The position numbers were made by a program, and so were the translations under genes. Under the pieces are notes generated by a model that ran no database searches, was not told where the DNA came from, and saw only the letters and a program-made list of their open reading frames with translations. Shown piece after piece: positions 1 through 30,241 of a DNA stretch of 34,715 bases (the stretch's first letter is position 1; the number at the start of each line of letters is the position of its first letter). Origin of the DNA: Candidatus Nomurabacteria bacterium. GTDB lineage: Bacteria; Patescibacteriota; Saccharimonadia; Saccharimonadales; Saccharimonadaceae. The stretch covers positions 1 to 34,715 of the forward strand of contig JAISBI010000027.1 of the NCBI GenBank assembly GCA_031266275.1, read 5' to 3'.

Positions 1-415
<415 letters not shown>

Positions 416-3148: not shown

Positions 3149-4932
3149 GATTCAATTGTATCACAACTAATCAATCGGCCCTCGACGCTGGTGCGGCCAT
3201 TCCATTCGTTCAGAGACGGCGTGAATAAAACTTTATAAAGTTTGTCCGACGCTATAAAGTTTTTGAGCTCATCCGCTGCGCCAAATTTAATCATCTCGAT
3301 GACTTTGCCGCCGGCGTCTTTGAAACGAAACTTGACATGTTGATTTTCTGCGCCCAGCGTTTTTTTGCCAATAATTTGTAATTTTTTGGCCGCCAAAATC
3401 GGCTGTTCGTTGCCCATGCCAAACGGTTCGAGTAAAGCTAGTTCCTTGACCAACTCTGCAGTCACATTTTTAAAATCATCAATCTCGACGTCCGCCGTCG
3501 GCTCCAAAACCTCCGCCTGATTTTCGAGCGCCAAAGAATTATAAAACCTGTTCACTGCCACGCGAAACTTGGCCAAGTTTTTCGTCGCCATAGTCACCCC
3601 GCCAGCCGCCGCATGCCCACCGCCCCTCTGAATCAAATCGCGCGCTGCGTCAATCGCCGCCGCAATCGAAAAATCGCCAAAACTACGCGCACTGCCCTTG
3701 CTCGTGCCATCCGGCAATTCCTCGAAAACAAAAACCGGCCGCTGATACTTCTCCATCAATTTACTAGCCACAATCCCCACCACGCCGTGCGACCAGCCAG
3801 CCCCCGAAACCACAATAACCGAAGGAGCTCCGGCACTACTCTCAGGGGCATTTCGATTTACATTTGATTTAACAATGAGATCCACTTCTACCGACAAGTC
3901 GGTAGAAGTTAGCTCATTGGAAATCAAGTGGCCCCTAAGAGTAGTGCCGGAGCTCCTGTCACTATTAATTTTCTCAACAGCTTCCTCAAAAATCCGCTCC
4001 TGCGTCCGCCGCCGCGCATAATTCAACTCATCCAACTCCTGTGCCAATCCAAAAGCCTCCTCCGCACCATCCGCCCGCAAAAGCCGCAAAGCAATCTCGG
4101 CCGTCTCCAACCGCCCCGCCGCATTCAGTCGCGGCCCGATGGCAAACCCAATCGCCCGCGCATCTAATTTCTCTGGACTAACCTGCGCCACCGACAGCAA
4201 AGCTCTCAATCCAGCCCGCCTCACCTTGCGCAAAACTTCCAGTCCCCAGTAAACCAACACTCGATTTTCATCCGTCAAAGGCACAATATCGCAAATCGTC
4301 CCGAGAGCCACCAAATCCAACCACCACTTCTCCTGTCCCGCCTTAACCCGAGACGTCACCTCGCCCCGCGTCAAAATCGCCCGCACCAACTTGAAAACCA
4401 CCCCGACCCCCGCCAAATCACCGAAAGGATACTTCGAATCATGCCGCTTCGGGTTGACCACCGCCACCGCTGGCGGCAAAACTTCGCCCACGCTATGATG
4501 GTCGGTGATAATCACATCCATGCCAAAACTGCCGGCCAATTCCACTTCTGCCACCGACAACGAACCGCAGTCGACCGAGATAATTAAATCAACATTCATC
4601 TCGGAAATCTTCTCGATGGCGTCCATATTCAACCCATAGCCTTCGGCAAATCTATCCGGCGTATAAGTCTCGACCTGCTCCGCGCCGAACATCGCCAATG
4701 CCTCGCCCAGCAGCACCGTCGCCGTCATGCCGTCCACATCATAGTCGCCATAAATCAAAATCCGCTCGCCCTGCGCTATGGCCCGCGAAATTCGCTCAAC
4801 CGCCGCTGTCATATCCGGCAGTAAAAACGGGTCATGCAAGCCATCGTCATAATTGGGATGCAAAAATTCTTCGACTTTCGCCGAAGTTTCATAGCCGCGT
4901 CTTGCCAAAACTTTCTCGACAATCGCGTTCAT
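3145..4932 (-). CDS. recJ: Single-stranded-DNA-specific 5'-3' exonuclease RecJ with an in-frame palindromic insertion
   Basis: 595 aa. The DHH domain shows DYDVDG (63-68), SVDCGS (119-124) and TDHHSVGE (143-150); the DHHA1 part has RGGGHAAAGG; a C-terminal OB-type domain follows. RecJ acts in RecF-pathway recombination, base excision and mismatch repair. Residues 326-370 (RSSGTTLRG to NAPESSAGAPS) are encoded by a 135-nt palindromic element, exactly 45 codons, between the helix ending EEAVEKINSD and the strand VIVVSGAGW. RecJ proteins normally have only a short loop there, so the gene looks intact and functional with an added loop. The start overlaps the stop of the wHTH gene (TGATG), indicating coupling. 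Confidence 0.95.
   Translation of the reverse strand: MNAIVEKVLARRGYETSAKVEEFLHPNYDDGLHDPFLLPDMTAAVERISRAIAQGERILIYGDYDVDGMTATVLLGEALAMFGAEQVETYTPDRFAEGYGLNMDAIEKISEMNVDLIISVDCGSLSVAEVELAGSFGMDVIITDHHSVGEVLPPAVAVVNPKRHDSKYPFGDLAGVGVVFKLVRAILTRGEVTSRVKAGQEKWWLDLVALGTICDIVPLTDENRVLVYWGLEVLRKVRRAGLRALLSVAQVSPEKLDARAIGFAIGPRLNAAGRLETAEIALRLLRADGAEEAFGLAQELDELNYARRRTQERIFEEAVEKINSDRSSGTTLRGHLISNELTSTDLSVEVDLIVKSNVNRNAPESSAGAPSVIVVSGAGWSHGVVGIVASKLMEKYQRPVFVFEELPDGTSKGSARSFGDFSIAAAIDAARDLIQRGGGHAAAGGVTMATKNLAKFRVAVNRFYNSLALENQAEVLEPTADVEIDDFKNVTAELVKELALLEPFGMGNEQPILAAKKLQIIGKKTLGAENQHVKFRFKDAGGKVIEMIKFGAADELKNFIASDKLYKVLFTPSLNEWNGRTSVEGRLISCDTIES
3823..3957. repeat. 135-bp palindromic element inserted in frame in recJ
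   Basis: The outer arms 3823-3849 and 3931-3957 are 27 nt each and complementary with one mismatch (a wobble pair in RNA). The inner arms pair as 3861-3870 with 3921-3930, 3874-3879 with 3913-3918, and 3884-3895 with 3898-3909 (12 perfect base pairs around an AA loop). The whole unit folds into one long hairpin. Its boundaries coincide with codon boundaries of recJ. No transposase and no obvious target duplication are visible. It resembles in concept the Rickettsia palindromic elements found in frame in coding genes; no sequence relation is claimed. Confidence 0.85.
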
Positions 4933-14801: not shown

Positions 14802-17027
14802 CTAGACGTTCGCTACACACCTTACTGCATAACCGTAGGTTCTATATGTGGTATTGGTCCAATCCACGGAAGTGGAATGGAGAATAATCCTGTTTGCACT
14901 GTCTACTGTGTTGTTAGCGGAGGAAGACCAATAGTAGCCTATGTTGTTTTGATTAGCGTAAGAGCTGTTAAAAATCCCACTATAAACAGCAAGCCAGGTG
15001 GTGCGCAAGCCAGCGTCTGAATTATTAGCTCCCGAGTTGACACTGGTGTTAAGAGTAGCAAGCTCGCTATTGTTACCTCCGGTCGGCAAGCGCCAATTAG
15101 CTGGGCAAATTGAAATTGCTGTGTCAAGATTCGAATTATTCTTGTTGGTACAAGCGTTAGTGTGCCCGCCCATTGCCGCACACCAGTTATAGAGATAACC
15201 ATATTGACCGCCCGAACCAGACGTGGTGCTAGGGTTGGTAGGCTCGGTGGTGACTGCAGACCCGCCTGTGTTTGGGTAATAGCGAGGCTCGGTGTAAGAA
15301 GCTGCTGTGCCGAGAGTGATGGTTCTGGTATCGTTATAATTAGTCGCTCCGCCGCCAGTATACGCTAAGTTAGTCAACATCCAGCATTTTCCGTCTGCCA
15401 ATTTTTGTATCCAATAAGAGTGGTTGTCGCGAAAGTCGTAGACACGGGTTCTAGTGGTTGGGCATTGGGCTATGTTGGTAAGGGTTTGCATGATGGCACC
15501 GGTTTGGAGCGGAGCGAGTACTCCAGTATAACTCCACTGTCCTGTGCGTGCATCAGATTGGGTGGTAGGGTTGTCTGTGCCTGTTATGCAACTATAGTAT
15601 CGTGTATTACCACCAACTGCGGTGGTTGTAGTTGTACCACTAGCGTTTGGATAGGAGCCACTGGCTGTTCCCCATGTGCAGACTGTATTGGCTGTAGTAC
15701 TAGTGACGGTAATGGTGGTGGTGCCTGATGGGATGTTGGTGGCGTTGTTAGCCGGTGTAGTGGTTGGTACTGCTGGTAGTGGGTGTTTGTAGGTATAGTC
15801 GTCAGCTGTGGTAGCGGTAGTTGGTAGGTCTGAGCTGGTCTTGGTGGTACCTCCCCAGGTCTTTACTACTAGGTCATAGGTGCCTGGTGTAATGGTTAGT
15901 CCGGAGCTGGTTTCACTGGGTAGGTCACAGGTGATGGTAGTGTTAGGGTTTGTGGGGTCAGTTATATTAGCATTGGTACAGGCTTCACCGGGTTTATTAC
16001 TAGTGCCACTGTCTTGTTCTCCATTACTATTTAGATCTATGAACACTTGGTAGGTAGTATCTAGGTTAGTGCCCGTGATAGTTATGGCTTTGGTTTCGGT
16101 GGTGGTGCCTATGGTGGGGGTAAGGCTAGTGATGGTGGGTGGTGCTGGTGGGGTGTAGGGGTTGGCAGTGACTGTGATAGTTACGGTATTGGTGTATGGG
16201 TTAGTGGTTGGTGTGGCGGGTAGGGTATTGTTTACTTTGGCTCCTATGGTAAGGGTTTGGGTACCATTGTTGTCTGGGTCGTCTGGGTTGGTGGGTTGGT
16301 GGGTGTTCTTAATGATGCTAGGTGCAGTACTGGCTGGTATAGCAAACCATAGTGGGTCAGTGCTAGGGTCGGGTGAGAATGAGGAAGTAGGGGCGGTAGA
16401 GGCTCCCCATTGGTTAGGACTAAGGGTGCTGGGGGTAATGATGCCAGAGGGGTCTATGGTGCCGGTGGTGGGGTTAATGATGTTTACGGCATCGGTGCAG
16501 TCATTGCCGTCGGTTAGGCGACGGAGGCAGGTGTCTGATGGGTCAGAACTAGGGCTGGTGGTGTTTAGTCTGGTGGTATAGCCAGAGGGGTTATCCGTGG
16601 TTACGACTATATTGGCAGTTACTTGGTTAAAGGTGTTGGGGATGAGAGAAAGAGTGGTGGGAGAGGCTATGGGAGAGATAGAGAGACTGGGGGAGGAGGC
16701 GGGTTTGAGGGCGTTGGTGGGTAAGGCAGAGACAATTGGTACTGGTATAGGTGGGAATAAAAGGAAGAAAGCTATGGCTAGGAGTGGTGGTAAGGAGACA
16801 AGGGGAACCAAACAGGAGTTGGTTAGGATTTTAGGTAGTTTAGAGAGGAAGTTGGTGGTAGTAGTAGTGGTGGTAGTGGTACGGAAAGGACTGTGATTAG
16901 TGTGGTGGGGATGAAAGGTAGAGGGTGGGTAGTGGGAGTTGGTTGGGATACGTGGTAGTTTAGAGAGGGGGTTAGAGTAGAGGTTAGAGTAGAGGTTAGA
17001 GCAAAGGTTGGTTATTGCGCGAGGCAA
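14802..17027 (-). CDS. Secreted FISUMP-domain surface protein, paralog B (phase-variable start)
   Basis: 741 aa counted from TTG 17027. A Thr/Ser/Asn-rich N-terminus with T9 (50-58) and SNLY repeats is followed by a signal or anchor helix at about 72-92. Then come a Pro/Thr-rich region, an IPT/TIG-like Ig module (about 296-415, PTITSLTPTIGTTTETKAITITGTNL), a second Ig-like module (417-502) and a C-terminal FISUMP domain (about 515-741). FISUMP signatures are KLADGKCWMLTNL, YGYLYNWCAAM, ICPANWRLPT, YYWSSSANN and YGYAVRCVANV. TTG has no Shine-Dalgarno; an upstream GTG/ATG (17161/17158) with AAAAGGG leads into this frame only if the (TC)11 tract changes to 10 or 13 units, giving about 784 aa. 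Strand composition is extreme (A/C-rich coding strand). Confidence 0.85.
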   Translation of the reverse strand: MPRAITNLCSNLYSNLYSNPLSKLPRIPTNSHYPPSTFHPHHTNHSPFRTTTTTTTTTNFLSKLPKILTNSCLVPLVSLPPLLAIAFFLLFPPIPVPIVSALPTNALKPASSPSLSISPIASPTTLSLIPNTFNQVTANIVVTTDNPSGYTTRLNTTSPSSDPSDTCLRRLTDGNDCTDAVNIINPTTGTIDPSGIITPSTLSPNQWGASTAPTSSFSPDPSTDPLWFAIPASTAPSIIKNTHQPTNPDDPDNNGTQTLTIGAKVNNTLPATPTTNPYTNTVTITVTANPYTPPAPPTITSLTPTIGTTTETKAITITGTNLDTTYQVFIDLNSNGEQDSGTSNKPGEACTNANITDPTNPNTTITCDLPSETSSGLTITPGTYDLVVKTWGGTTKTSSDLPTTATTADDYTYKHPLPAVPTTTPANNATNIPSGTTTITVTSTTANTVCTWGTASGSYPNASGTTTTTAVGGNTRYYSCITGTDNPTTQSDARTGQWSYTGVLAPLQTGAIMQTLTNIAQCPTTRTRVYDFRDNHSYWIQKLADGKCWMLTNLAYTGGGATNYNDTRTITLGTAASYTEPRYYPNTGGSAVTTEPTNPSTTSGSGGQYGYLYNWCAAMGGHTNACTNKNNSNLDTAISICPANWRLPTGGNNSELATLNTSVNSGANNSDAGLRTTWLAVYSGIFNSSYANQNNIGYYWSSSANNTVDSANRIILHSTSVDWTNTTYRTYGYAVRCVANV

Positions 17028-17028
17028 C

Positions 17029-17050
17029 GAGAGAGAGAGAGAGAGAGAGA
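17029..17050 (-). repeat. Dinucleotide tract (TC)11 inside the start region of paralog B
   Basis: The upstream frame reads MKTTTNNINNTINNN, TANNNKVFPTHFLL, NSLKPNP, then (SL)n through the tract. With 11 units it shifts and stops at TAA 17014-17012; with 10 or 13 it continues as SLPRAITNLCSNLY into the 741-aa ORF. Paralog A has the same arrangement with 18 units, and the peptide FP(S/T)HFL just before the tract is conserved, which supports translation of the upstream frame. Confidence 0.85.
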
Positions 17051-23469: not shown

Positions 23470-24135
23470 TTATTGCAAAACTGCTCGCACTATTAGCCGC
23501 TCTCGCATTGTGTTGTTTTGGCTATCCCACGCTCCGACGCACGTCATTAGGCTGAAGCCTTGTGCGCTATCCTCTGGCACGGACTGAAATTCGGCCATAT
23601 CGACCGCTTCGCGCGCGATGATTTTCGTTTCAACTACTTCATAGTGAAACTTCTTGCCGGCCGAATTTTCTACTATGATTTCAGCGCCTATCGACAAGTT
23701 CGTCAGCCCGTCGCACAGGGCCGGCACGCCGCCATAACCCGAATGACAGGTATAAACTCCCTGTCCGTCCGTGCTGGGCGCGGGGGAAGCTTTGAACCAA
23801 CCAAAATGCCATAAATCTTCTGGGTCATCCAGTTGGCCGGCGGCTTCTTGGCCCGAGCCGACGCTTTCGACGCAGGCGTTTTCGATGCTGGCGGCCGGAA
23901 TGGACACTAGATATGGTCTGCTGGTAATTTGATTGGGCCGACAACCGTCCACTTCAGTCGGGGCATAAGTTTCGCTAATCACCGGAGCAATAGTGTCGAT
24001 GTCGCCGTCACTAACATTACCAGCATTGAGACTAAAATAATTAGTTACGACCGATACGCCAACCACCACAATAACTCCGGCCACGAACGCGAAAGTCGGC
24101 CGAAGATTAAACCTTTTTACTTTCACTGTTACCAT
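23470..24135 (-). CDS. Sortase (class E/F-like transpeptidase)
   Basis: 221 aa. An N-terminal membrane anchor (about 13-32) precedes a sortase barrel: RPYLVSIPAASIENACVESVG, LDDPEDLWHFGWFKASPAP, the catalytic His131 in VYTCHSGYGG, catalytic Cys199 in LMTCVGAW and the nearby Arg in RERLIVRAVL. Extra cysteines (88, 130, 141) might form a disulfide. Sortases join LPxTG-like proteins to the wall or to each other. Likely substrates are the upstream protein ending in ANTGVK (24195-24833) and the beta-helix protein with VPNTGV. It has no clear Shine-Dalgarno and probably depends on the promoter of the upstream gene. Confidence 0.88.
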   Translation of the reverse strand: MVTVKVKRFNLRPTFAFVAGVIVVVGVSVVTNYFSLNAGNVSDGDIDTIAPVISETYAPTEVDGCRPNQITSRPYLVSIPAASIENACVESVGSGQEAAGQLDDPEDLWHFGWFKASPAPSTDGQGVYTCHSGYGGVPALCDGLTNLSIGAEIIVENSAGKKFHYEVVETKIIAREAVDMAEFQSVPEDSAQGFSLMTCVGAWDSQNNTMRERLIVRAVLQ

Positions 24136-24144
24136 AACTCACGC

Positions 24145-24182
24145 ATGCAGGAAGCCCCGCCTCAAATTCGGACGGGGGCTTT
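24145..24182 (-). other. Hairpin between the NTG-tailed protein gene and the sortase gene
   Basis: On the minus strand AGGAAAGCCCC pairs with GGGGCTTCCT (one bulged A) around a GC-containing loop. There is no U tract, so read-through is expected. It may act as a 3' stabiliser giving the upstream gene higher expression than the sortase. Confidence 0.5.
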
Positions 24183-24194
24183 CCTCAAATTGGA

Positions 24195-24833
24195 TTATTT
24201 CACACCAGTATTAGCAGCTTTCACGATCGAGGCAACCTCGACAACCGAACCGTCAGCTTGAACTTCATAGGTCTTACCGTTTTGAGTGACGATTTGACCA
24301 TCCATCAAACCTAGAGCGCTAGCCCAATCTTCAAGGTTCACACCATCTGGAGCAATGATATCAGCAGCGGTCAAAGTGAAGTTCGCCAAGCCACTCAAGT
24401 TGGTAATACTACTGAGGTCAGCCGTGCCAGCCACAGTTGCACTGACCGGTGCATTGGTCGGGGTCGCCTTAATAGCAGCGGCCACAGCAACTGCGTCTGC
24501 GCTAGTCAAGTCTCCGCTAACCTGTAAATTTACAATCAGACTTGGATTGTCAAAACCGTAGTTAGCCATATTATTTACAAACCCGCCAGCTACCCAAGCT
24601 GGATTGGCAGTAATAACATTGACTTCTGTCACATTACTAAAACTGTCGCCGGCGAGTGCATTGTAGATGTCTTGCGATACAACGTTCGAATTCTCGCTAC
24701 TGATATTCAACGTCAAAATAGTGCCACTGTAGTCGGCCACACCAAACGTGCCCGCGAAAATTGGTGTCGCTGCAACCGCTAACCCAAGCGTCACAGCAAA
24801 GGCCGAAACGGCCACAATATTTAGTTTTTTCAT
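24195..24833 (-). CDS. Secreted protein with C-terminal ANTGVK motif, sortase partner
   Basis: 212 aa. Signal peptide (MKKLNIVAVSAFAVTLGLA, cleavage probably after IFA-G near 28). The mature part is acidic, Ala/Thr/Asn-rich and has alternating short strands (LTLNISSENSNVV, ADLSSITNLSGLANFTL) reminiscent of small adhesin or bacterial-surface modules. It ends AANTGVK directly followed by the stop, with no membrane helix or basic tail in any downstream frame. The (P/A)NTGV end matches the sorting motif of the beta-helix protein. AAGGAG precedes ATG 24833. Expression is probably set by the poly-G promoter upstream. Confidence 0.75.
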   Translation of the reverse strand: MKKLNIVAVSAFAVTLGLAVAATPIFAGTFGVADYSGTILTLNISSENSNVVSQDIYNALAGDSFSNVTEVNVITANPAWVAGGFVNNMANYGFDNPSLIVNLQVSGDLTSADAVAVAAAIKATPTNAPVSATVAGTADLSSITNLSGLANFTLTAADIIAPDGVNLEDWASALGLMDGQIVTQNGKTYEVQADGSVVEVASIVKAANTGVK

Positions 24834-24902
24834 ATTTTTCTCCTTGACCTCATTTTATTTACATTATGTTGTGTGAGAGATCCGGCACATAACAACATCT
24901 AA

Positions 24903-24933
24903 TGTATACCCCCCCCCCCCCCAGCTTTGTCAA
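24903..24933 (-). promoter_or_regulatory. Promoter with a 14-nt G tract in its spacer (likely phase-variable)
   Basis: Minus strand: a perfect TTGACA (24933-24928), then AAGCT, G14 (24922-24909), then TATACA (24908-24903). The spacer to TATACA is 19 bp; 12 Gs would give the optimal 17. An alternative -10 TACATT would be 2 bp further. Homopolymer tracts change length by slippage, so promoter strength should vary between cells. Confidence 0.7.
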
Positions 24934-25044
24934 TAGTAAGCCTAATATCACCTCTTGCCACGTCCGTTCAATGTTGTAAAAATTACAATATATTAGGGAA
25001 AATTTTCGATATCTTTATCTAATTATTTCGTCATTATAAAAAAT

Positions 25045-25078
25045 AAGGGCCGCGTGATTCGCATCAAGCGGCCTTTTT
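25045..25078. terminator. Bidirectional terminator after the AAA_28-type gene
   Basis: AAGGGCCGC with GCGGCCTTT (one wobble) plus an inner TGAT/ATCA stem around TCGC. T5 follows on the plus strand, and ATTTTTTAT follows on the minus strand, where it ends the gene with stop at 25100. Confidence 0.85.
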
Positions 25079-25099
25079 ATTGGATTGGCGAAATTGTCA

Positions 25100-27838: not shown

Positions 27839-30241
27839 TTACTTAGTGTTTCGCTTTTTCGTTCTTGTGCATTTCACGTTAGGCTTCAGCCCCGCCAATT
27901 CACAAGCTCTAGTAAAAGAACCAAACCTTCTGTAATAAATAGCCACACTAGGTATCTGCTTATTATTATCGATATCACTAATTGATGGGGTTTTGCCTAA
28001 TGTCTCAGCAAAAGTTTTCAATAAACCTAAAGCTTTCTCGTCTGAGATAATACCTATAGGCTTCTTTGGCTCCATACCAATTAAGGCCGAAACTTCATAC
28101 CAAGAAGCTATCTTGAAGCGATCCATGTATGTCGTATGGGTTGGCATAGCTTTATCATCAGTCATTTCCAGTGTCGTAGGAAACCTTCCTAGAATTTTCG
28201 TCTTGTCACGTAATAATTGTAGCAACTCCTCATTAGTGCGCTTTTTATCAAGTCTCTCTACTTCAAGCCCAGCGGCTAATATAGCACTGCTCAATTTTCC
28301 GAATTTCCTTTCATAAGAATTTGCTTTAAATTTGGAGCTGGGTGCATTAACATCTTTCCTCACAAGAGGTCTACCTAATTCTTTTTGTAGATTTACAAGA
28401 TTATCTAGCATCTCCTCTTTCGTGTATAATCTTCTATCACTATTCAAAGGTAGTCCCGCAGCCATTAATGCTTTGTTAAAAGTCCCAAACTCGTTATTAA
28501 AAGCATTGAGAGGTGCCATAGTCATATCAGCATGAACATCGCTTGCTTTAGGATTACGTCCCAAAGATTTGGCTTTTTTGAGTAATTGCTTCAGCAATTC
28601 GTCTCTCGAGAAAGGTTGGCGTCTAGGCGACCGTCTCGTTTTAGGTTGAAATCCAGCAGCCAGTAGCGCGTTATTGAATGAACCAAAACAACGCTTAAAG
28701 ACCTTGTAGCTAGCCATCGTTTTGTCACTTCTGGTATCAGTTACTTGAGGTGCCCTGCCTAACTCTTCGGCCATTTTCTGTAATTGAGCAACCAGCTCGT
28801 CTCTCGAGTAAGATCTTCGTACACGTAGCTGTTTTATGTTAGGTTGAAACCCAGCGGCTAATAGTGCATTATTGAATGAGCCGAAATGATGAATAAAAGT
28901 ACTAGAGTCAGCCATCATTCTATCATTGTCAACGTTTTTCCCCGTAGGAGTTTTGCCTAATTCTTCAGCCAGTTTCTGTAATTGGGTAATCAGCTCGTCT
29001 TTGGTGTAATGCCAATTCCTTGCCTGCTCAATCAGCGCCAAAATATCCACTTTACGCTCACGAAACTTCGGATTGTCGACATTCACGATAAACCTATCTT
29101 CGATTTCGACCTCTGAATTTCTTTCACGTTCTGGAGATTTTTCGACATATCCTCGTGCTTTTTCGGTCATCGTTTCAATAATCATCAGACGATCGACGTT
29201 CGCGATGAAATCAAGCACCAACACTGACTTTTTGCCTTCTGCCAATCTCAAGCCCCGTCCCAGTTGTTGATGCAACACTACGGGCGAAACTGTTTGTCGC
29301 AGAAACACGATGACATCTACGCTGGGCACATCAATTCCCTCGTTGAGTTTGTCCACTACAACGATGGTCTTGAGTTTGCCCTCGCGAAACGCCGTCAAAT
29401 TGGCTTTTTGCTCTGGCAAAGGCATCTTGCAATGCACTGTCATAGAGCCTTTCATCAATGCCGAAATTCGTTCGGCATGTTTGATAGTTCGGCAATAGAC
29501 GATAGTCTGCGGATTTTTCTTCGCCGCAGATTTCTCTTTAATTATCGACACTATCTTCTCATCCCGTAAAGGAATGAAAATCCGACGATTGAGCTCTTTC
29601 AATGAAACTCTTTCGCGGTTTTCCTTATCCAAAAAACTTTCTAACCCGCCGATTTCGTCCATTAAGACTTCATAATCGACTTTCGATAGCCAACCATTCG
29701 CCATCCCCCAGAAAAGATCTCTTCTAAAAATCTCTTTCCCGCAAATTGGCTCCAAATCAAGCTTGTCCAGCCTATCCGGCGTCGCCGTCAGGCTCAACAT
29801 GAACTGCGGTTTGAAATAATTAGCCACCTTTCGAAACGTTGGCGCTGGAACGTGATGAGCTTCATCGACAATAATGTAGACGAATTCATCACTCATAAAC
29901 GCGTCTTTCCAGTCCACCATCGTTTGAAACGACGCGAATAGGAAATCCGTCTCGTGCAAGGTTTTTTCCGTGCCGTTGAAAAGCCCGTAACTGTATCCGT
30001 CGTCCAACTCCGATTGAAACTCGCCCATAGCTTGTTCCAAAATGTCGTTGTTGTGGCAGAGATATAGCACGCGGCCCCGCAGCATCTGGAAAAAATCCAT
30101 CACATCATGGACAGCGAACATGGTTTTACCCAGCCCGCTCGCCATCACCACGAGGACTTTTTTCATGCCCTCTGTGCGAGCACCTCTGGTGCATGACAGA
30201 CATTCTGCCTGATACGGCCTGAGTTTTTCCAATTCAATCAC
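27839..30241 (-). CDS. Superfamily 2 helicase with six C-terminal HNH_repeat-like modules
   Basis: 800 aa. Helicase core: Walker A ASGLGKT (34-40), DEAH (126-129), SLTATP (150-155) and arginine finger region QQLGRGLRLAEGK (326-338), as in type III restriction/UvrB-like ResIII enzymes. Residues 412-788 form six repeats of about 57 residues (412, 478, 544, 606, 669, 733), each with (Y/F)(S/T)(R/K)(D/E)EL...LGR(x)P...FGSFNNALLAAGF. The pattern resembles the repeat found with homing endonucleases (HNH_repeat), probably a DNA-binding helical unit. The nuclease itself is absent. Start is uncertain: GTG 30241 sits very close to AAGGAG, and TTG 30232 has better spacing. The repeat part is more AT-rich than its surroundings. 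Confidence 0.85.
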   Translation of the reverse strand: MIELEKLRPYQAECLSCTRGARTEGMKKVLVVMASGLGKTMFAVHDVMDFFQMLRGRVLYLCHNNDILEQAMGEFQSELDDGYSYGLFNGTEKTLHETDFLFASFQTMVDWKDAFMSDEFVYIIVDEAHHVPAPTFRKVANYFKPQFMLSLTATPDRLDKLDLEPICGKEIFRRDLFWGMANGWLSKVDYEVLMDEIGGLESFLDKENRERVSLKELNRRIFIPLRDEKIVSIIKEKSAAKKNPQTIVYCRTIKHAERISALMKGSMTVHCKMPLPEQKANLTAFREGKLKTIVVVDKLNEGIDVPSVDVIVFLRQTVSPVVLHQQLGRGLRLAEGKKSVLVLDFIANVDRLMIIETMTEKARGYVEKSPERERNSEVEIEDRFIVNVDNPKFRERKVDILALIEQARNWHYTKDELITQLQKLAEELGKTPTGKNVDNDRMMADSSTFIHHFGSFNNALLAAGFQPNIKQLRVRRSYSRDELVAQLQKMAEELGRAPQVTDTRSDKTMASYKVFKRCFGSFNNALLAAGFQPKTRRSPRRQPFSRDELLKQLLKKAKSLGRNPKASDVHADMTMAPLNAFNNEFGTFNKALMAAGLPLNSDRRLYTKEEMLDNLVNLQKELGRPLVRKDVNAPSSKFKANSYERKFGKLSSAILAAGLEVERLDKKRTNEELLQLLRDKTKILGRFPTTLEMTDDKAMPTHTTYMDRFKIASWYEVSALIGMEPKKPIGIISDEKALGLLKTFAETLGKTPSISDIDNNKQIPSVAIYYRRFGSFTRACELAGLKPNVKCTRTKKRNTK

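Follow-up and report, generated by a model that had tools for sequence, protein, structure and literature searches.

The closest described counterpart of the locus considered here is porA of Neisseria meningitidis, in which a G homopolymer occupies the spacer between the -35 and -10 elements of a surface-protein gene and the level of transcript follows the number of Gs, according to the accessible part of PMC3899988, which cites van der Ende 1995 on the latter point; a phasotype table in the accessible part of PMC4235727 codes porA with 12 Gs as high. The same portion of PMC3899988 describes further promoter-spacer repeats, namely the TA repeat of Haemophilus influenzae hifA/hifB and those of surface proteins in Bordetella pertussis and Mycoplasma hyorhinis.

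A similar arrangement is present in the stretch of DNA analyzed here (the window), the 34,715 nucleotides of contig C13 in a draft genome of 792 kb and 42 contigs, which is the sole representative of its genus in a set with one genome per species. On the minus strand, positions 24933 to 24901 read TTGACA-AAGCT-G14-TATACATT, 69 nt 5′ of a gene for a predicted secreted protein that is followed by a sortase gene. The features of this region are the following.

25040–25080, no strand assigned: GC hairpin with A/T runs on either side, found by eye, which likely terminates the upstream gene
24928–24933, minus strand: -35 element, a perfect TTGACA, the single perfect copy in the intergenic region
24923–24927, minus strand: AAGCT between TTGACA and the G run, read from the sequence
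24909–24922, minus strand: G14 tract inside the promoter spacer, the candidate variable element, from sequence reading and a homopolymer scan
24901–24908, minus strand: -10 region TATACATT, with two candidate hexamers, TATACA or TACATT
24903–24908, minus strand: -10 candidate TATACA, spacer 5 + 14 = 19 bp
24901–24906, minus strand: -10 candidate TACATT, spacer 21 bp, the TANNNT found by the family pattern described below
24840–24845, minus strand: ribosome-binding site AAGGAG, found by eye
24195–24833, minus strand, ATG at 24833: gene for a 212-aa predicted secreted protein, an orphan with a signal peptide-like N-terminus and the C-terminus KAANTGVK
24148–24187, minus strand: GC-rich hairpin between the secreted-protein and sortase genes, -22.9 kcal/mol, z -1.52, no T-run
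23470–24135, minus strand: sortase gene, PF04203, nearest to class F sortases but under that model's cut-off

The original prediction had a perfect TTGACA followed by the G14 run and gave the spacer as 19 bp. The TTGACA is indeed perfect, the G run follows it after the five bases AAGCT and not directly, and the 19 bp are confirmed when the count runs to TATACA, the alternative TACATT giving 21 bp. A workable distance between -35 and -10 elements is about 16–19 bp, so that as assembled the spacer to TATACA falls within the range. Each hexamer agrees with TATAAT at four of six positions, the final T being kept in TACATT and not in TATACA, and the window's promoter has TA between the G run and TANNNT, unlike most of its relatives. 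Since the length of assembled homopolymers of 13 or more is unreliable, as the available text of PMC4235727 has it, the figure of 14 Gs is to be taken as a draft-assembly value.

The tract is the longest homopolymer of the window, in which G8 words occur nine times; dinucleotide shuffles average 0.42, and not one of 100 gets to nine. The intergenic gap of 266 bp holds one perfect TTGACA with both strands counted, together with a second, weak promoter candidate, TTGTTA-N21-CATAAT, that lies nearer the gene than the G14 promoter. A promoter scan restricted to spacers of 16–18 bp does not list the G14 promoter, and it finds promoter-like sites about as often in shuffled sequence. The likely terminator at 25040–25080 implies that the secreted-protein gene needs a promoter of its own; this hairpin is absent from the list of that scan, and an inverted-repeat search gave no pair there. 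Two other regulatory elements were considered and set aside: a regulatory hairpin in the 5′ UTR, where the fold is no better than in shuffles (z 0.35), and an inverted-repeat operator, of which the inverted-repeat search found none.

Judged by sequence only, the G14 promoter would control a putative surface protein, a reading that draws on the signal-peptide-like N-terminus (hydrophobic score 2.5) and on the enrichment of secreted-protein genes behind such promoters in the family. The 212-aa protein matches no Pfam and no NCBIfam model, its homologues are confined to one of 198 family genomes (its own) with none in a genome contig database, its matches to PDB sequences are weak and name a “surface anchored protein” (E 0.025 to 0.37), and a single-sequence structure model with a mean pLDDT of 70 returned no fold match at E 0.001, neither of the last two results being used further. 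The proposal that it is a sortase substrate is plausible, though the substrate would be an atypical one: the sorting-like motif is AANTG, not LPXTG, and the protein ends AANTGVK, the motif being followed by neither a hydrophobic membrane segment nor a basic tail; relatives have APNTG, TPNTG and VPDTG. The other frames ahead of the sortase gene lack a hydrophobic or basic tail as well, and A[AP]NTG, sought as DNA throughout the source genome, is present in the 212-aa protein only. A comparable ending is seen in genome G020, where two tandem TIG genes, each with its own G-run promoter, end just past the motif (GAPNTGRGL, GAPNTGRY) as the window's protein does. The proteins of L117, L118 and window 24195–24833 all appear secreted and end after NTG (APNTGRGL, APNTGRY, AANTGVK) with no membrane anchor, and it is possible that the three are tailless sortase substrates. 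The sortase gene itself starts 59 bp past the secreted-protein gene; its predicted product scores 43.8 bits against PF04203, above the curated cut-off of 26.6, and 61.1 bits against the class F model NF033748, below that model's cut-off of 166. The strong hairpin that lies between this gene and the secreted-protein gene could lead to attenuation or processing of the transcript.

Long G runs are a recurrent feature of this genome, which contains 12 tracts of nine or more Gs and no A9 or T9 tract; for runs of 13 or more, about 0.02 would be expected by a simple equal-frequency estimate against four observed. When the surroundings of all 12 were read, the window's tract alone lay in a promoter. 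Ten of the 11 others lie 32–86 nt past an ATG and, where there is enough sequence, ahead of a hydrophobic signal-peptide-like stretch, and in six loci TATGCTAAACT stands shortly upstream of the tract-bearing ATG, a position that suggests leaderless transcripts. The reading frame is open through the tract in three cases (L034, L035, L038); five others, L032, L036, L037 (tract at 4761), L039 and L040, have a long frame past the tract that is out of frame as assembled. A further tract in L037 (at 109) meets a stop no more than 15 codons on and near the contig end, L033 breaks off 30 bases past its tract, and the G9 of L041 lies inside a reading frame and looks unlike the others. Among eight frames scanned, L034, L038 and L039 reach just above the cut-off of the FISUMP profile, L036 and L037 stay below it (E 6e-9 and 1e-9), L040 weakly matches a CPR pilus protein, and neither L032 nor L041 has a domain match. 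L032 to L040 form a family of predicted secreted proteins, several of them with FISUMP domains, with G9–G14 runs shortly past the ATG. Copies in this genome with near-identical flanks differ in tract length (G11/G14; G10/G11/G9; G10/G9/G13).

The suggestion that the window holds a second layer of switching at the cell surface finds support in two more of its genes, each with a TC tract between a plausible ATG and a long reading frame:

17029–17050, minus strand: 5′-terminal (TC)11 tract of a FISUMP-domain gene (14802–17027); in the assembly the upstream ATG is in a different frame
376–412, minus strand: 5′-terminal (TC)18 tract of a related gene truncated by the contig edge (3–374); here too the upstream ATG is in a different frame in the assembly

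Elsewhere in the window (27839–30241, minus strand) lies a helicase gene with ResIII and Helicase_C domains and six homing-endonuclease-associated HNH repeats.

The promoter architecture itself recurs among relatives. A search of 394 genomes from the window's family, by indirect evidence Candidatus Saccharibacteria, for the pattern TTGACA N(0-10) G9 N(0-8) TANNNT, with the reversed pattern as control, gave matches in 58 of them (the window's and 57 others), including 37 of 242 good-quality genomes and covering 19 of 61 genera. After hand merging of rows with a common TTGACA these amount to 123 distinct places, as against one match of the control. The G run abuts the -10 TANNNT in 100 of the 123, although the pattern permits up to eight bases between them, and the distance from TTGACA to the tract is 9 in 50 places. 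Spacer lengths peak at 18 bp (30 places) and 19 bp (35 places), whereas ordinary promoters of the fetched loci, defined with a relaxed -10 and free of G6/C6 runs, have their maximum at 17 bp, with 26 cases compared to 7 at 16 bp and 6 at 18 bp. With the ambiguity of the window's -10, this result gives no support to the earlier expectation that 12 Gs and a 17-bp spacer would be the ON state. A search that admitted runs from G6 upwards in 198 genomes gave hits in 31 genomes and three control matches, the usual length still being G9–G10; because few shorter-run sites were added (genome G156 apart), the 18–19 bp mode is not made by the cut-off of nine Gs alone, and that explanation was dropped.

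A poly-C form of the spacer tract occurs at 15 places in nine of 198 genomes, compared with 77 poly-G places in 27 of the same 198. The form is real and was kept separate because the tract lies near the -35 and mostly under one genus label (g20). The g20 genomes G072, G019 and G096 have this second class with a C9–10 run near the -35, and the -10 is in most cases preceded by a stretch containing TG. The architecture is not peculiar to the family: among 379 genomes from across the phylum, 12 contain the pattern (two of 24 within the family, 10 of 355 outside it), and the form with TATAAT occurs in at least 119 stretches of named genomes, of which the 80 listed include Candidatus Saccharibacteria. 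The matches listed include Clostridia, Bacilli, Chloroflexi, Streptobacillus, Helicobacter and others, so that a feature restricted to the family is ruled out by the phylum genomes and by these other phyla.

As to the genes behind these promoters, 120 of the 122 other places were fetched and, with identical flanks merged, gave 120 sites including the window's, 111 of which have a downstream frame of at least 60 aa, the other nine ending within 148 nt at a contig end. Among genes of at least 100 aa, 47 of 101 downstream genes have a strongly hydrophobic, secreted or transmembrane-like N-terminus, whereas in the rest of these loci the count is 43 of 253 genes (Fisher p 3e-8), as judged by a crude gene finder and hydrophobicity rule; over all downstream frames the figure is 51 of 111, about half having no such N-terminus. 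Domains in 91 downstream proteins include FISUMP (11), collagen-like adhesins (7), pilins (5), the Listeria-Bacteroides repeat (5) and TIG (4), and a sorting-like motif lies within 60 aa of the end in 14 of 98 complete proteins, the window's included (that of L128 looks accidental). Acidic, apparently cytoplasmic proteins also occur behind G-run promoters (L136, L137, L143, L158, L159, L170 and others), and some of these six have a common N-terminal EVPFxG-like motif. A poly-G tract in a sigma70-type spacer, recurrent in the family and enriched before genes for secreted proteins, supports the porA-type arrangement first proposed for the window.

Tract lengths also differ between sites with the same flanks. 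In four of six same-flank groups within genomes the runs are unequal (10/11, 10/14, 12/13, 16/17) and in two they are equal, the differences lying between paralogues or contigs and the exact lengths coming from draft assemblies. In G280, where one copy starts at contig base 2 and 35 bases separate the other from a contig end, the assembly may have represented a single locus twice. G6, G7 and G8 all occur on the flank TTGACACCAACCTC...TACACT of G156. That genome has eleven TTGACA-N8/9-G6-8-TANNNT promoters on eleven contigs, most with one flank, and they form a multigene set with short variable runs.

Given this architecture, its recurrence against a near-zero control, the nature of the downstream genes and the length differences, the best reading of the G14 promoter is that it is probably a phase-variable (contingency) promoter of the porA type. 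Slipped-strand mispairing in replication would, we infer, add or remove Gs of the tract; a changed count would alter the distance and the twist between the -35 TTGACA and the -10, and the altered geometry would push transcription of the gene for the secreted NTG-ended protein up or down, randomly in individual cells, with certain tract lengths as ON lengths. If the two genes are co-transcribed, the sortase behind would perhaps be switched along. The G14 promoter would then be one of several contingency loci in the genome, most of the others switching secreted proteins by frameshift.

Several alternatives can be envisioned. The tract may be a slowly evolving tuner of promoter strength whose length seldom differs within a population, an unlikely account but the best placed of the three. 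It would sit well with length differences that are between paralogues or contigs and not between cells of one clone, and with a clustering of poly-G spacers at 18–19 bp that could be a preferred set-point. However, runs of 13–19 Gs are expected to be slippage-prone, polyC/polyG being less stable than polyA/T in the account given in the available part of PMC3899988, and the genome retains large intact frames behind many tracts that leave them out of frame as assembled, a state easier to reconcile with switching than with tuning. Less likely again is a start elsewhere in the 266-bp gap, with the TTGACA present by chance and the tract outside any functional promoter. The weakness of both -10 hexamers and the presence of the other weak candidate nearer the gene would allow this; against it stand the sole perfect -35 of the gap, the same order of elements at 123 places for a single control match, and the likely terminator, which leaves the gene in need of its own promoter. 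That the G run is an artefact of assembly or sequencing is highly improbable, for although errors are frequent in long G runs and some of those in this genome lie near contig breaks, twelve such tracts with ten of the other eleven at one type of site and none of A/T, and the same architecture in 57 other genomes, indicate that error may alter a count and not the presence of a tract.

If the phase-variable reading of the G14 promoter is extended to its relatives, the balance tips slightly towards a large, convergently built phasome in Saccharibacteria, in which G-run promoters abutting the -10 and frameshifting G and TC tracts would independently switch adhesins, type IV pilins, collagen-like proteins, FISUMP proteins and sortase substrates within single reduced genomes; clonal episymbionts would thereby show their hosts many surface combinations, and the set-point of the G-run spacer would be 18–19 bp, not 17. 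The Saccharibacteria in cultivation live on the cell surfaces of other bacteria. If dozens of adhesin, pilin and sortase-substrate genes flip at random through G-run promoters, standing clonal variation could explain host range and escape from host resistance. A practical caution is to regard neither the assembled tract lengths nor the “broken” surface genes of such genomes as fixed.

Our literature search, with thin coverage of subscription papers and preprints, turned up no account of phase variation by poly-G or at promoters in Saccharibacteria. Repeat variation in another member of the candidate phyla radiation is seen in a hypervariable gene of a Gracilibacterium with a PTD repeat, for which slipped-strand mispairing is discussed in the accessible part of PMC6851277; as described there it is an in-frame coding repeat that alters the protein sequence, unlike the on/off promoter tract proposed for the window. 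The hifA/hifB, B. pertussis and M. hyorhinis systems are alike in that repeat number alters the promoter geometry of surface genes (PMC3899988, as far as available), and differ in their genes and hosts and, for hifA/hifB, in the TA unit, the repeat here being of G only and in relatives usually set against the -10. From porA the locus differs in that the organism is unrelated, Saccharibacteria-like and has no porA, and in that an orphan secreted protein and then a sortase follow the promoter. The spacer-repeat mechanism is thus already known and widespread in bacteria; what is new, as far as the literature search reaches, is the host lineage and the scale.
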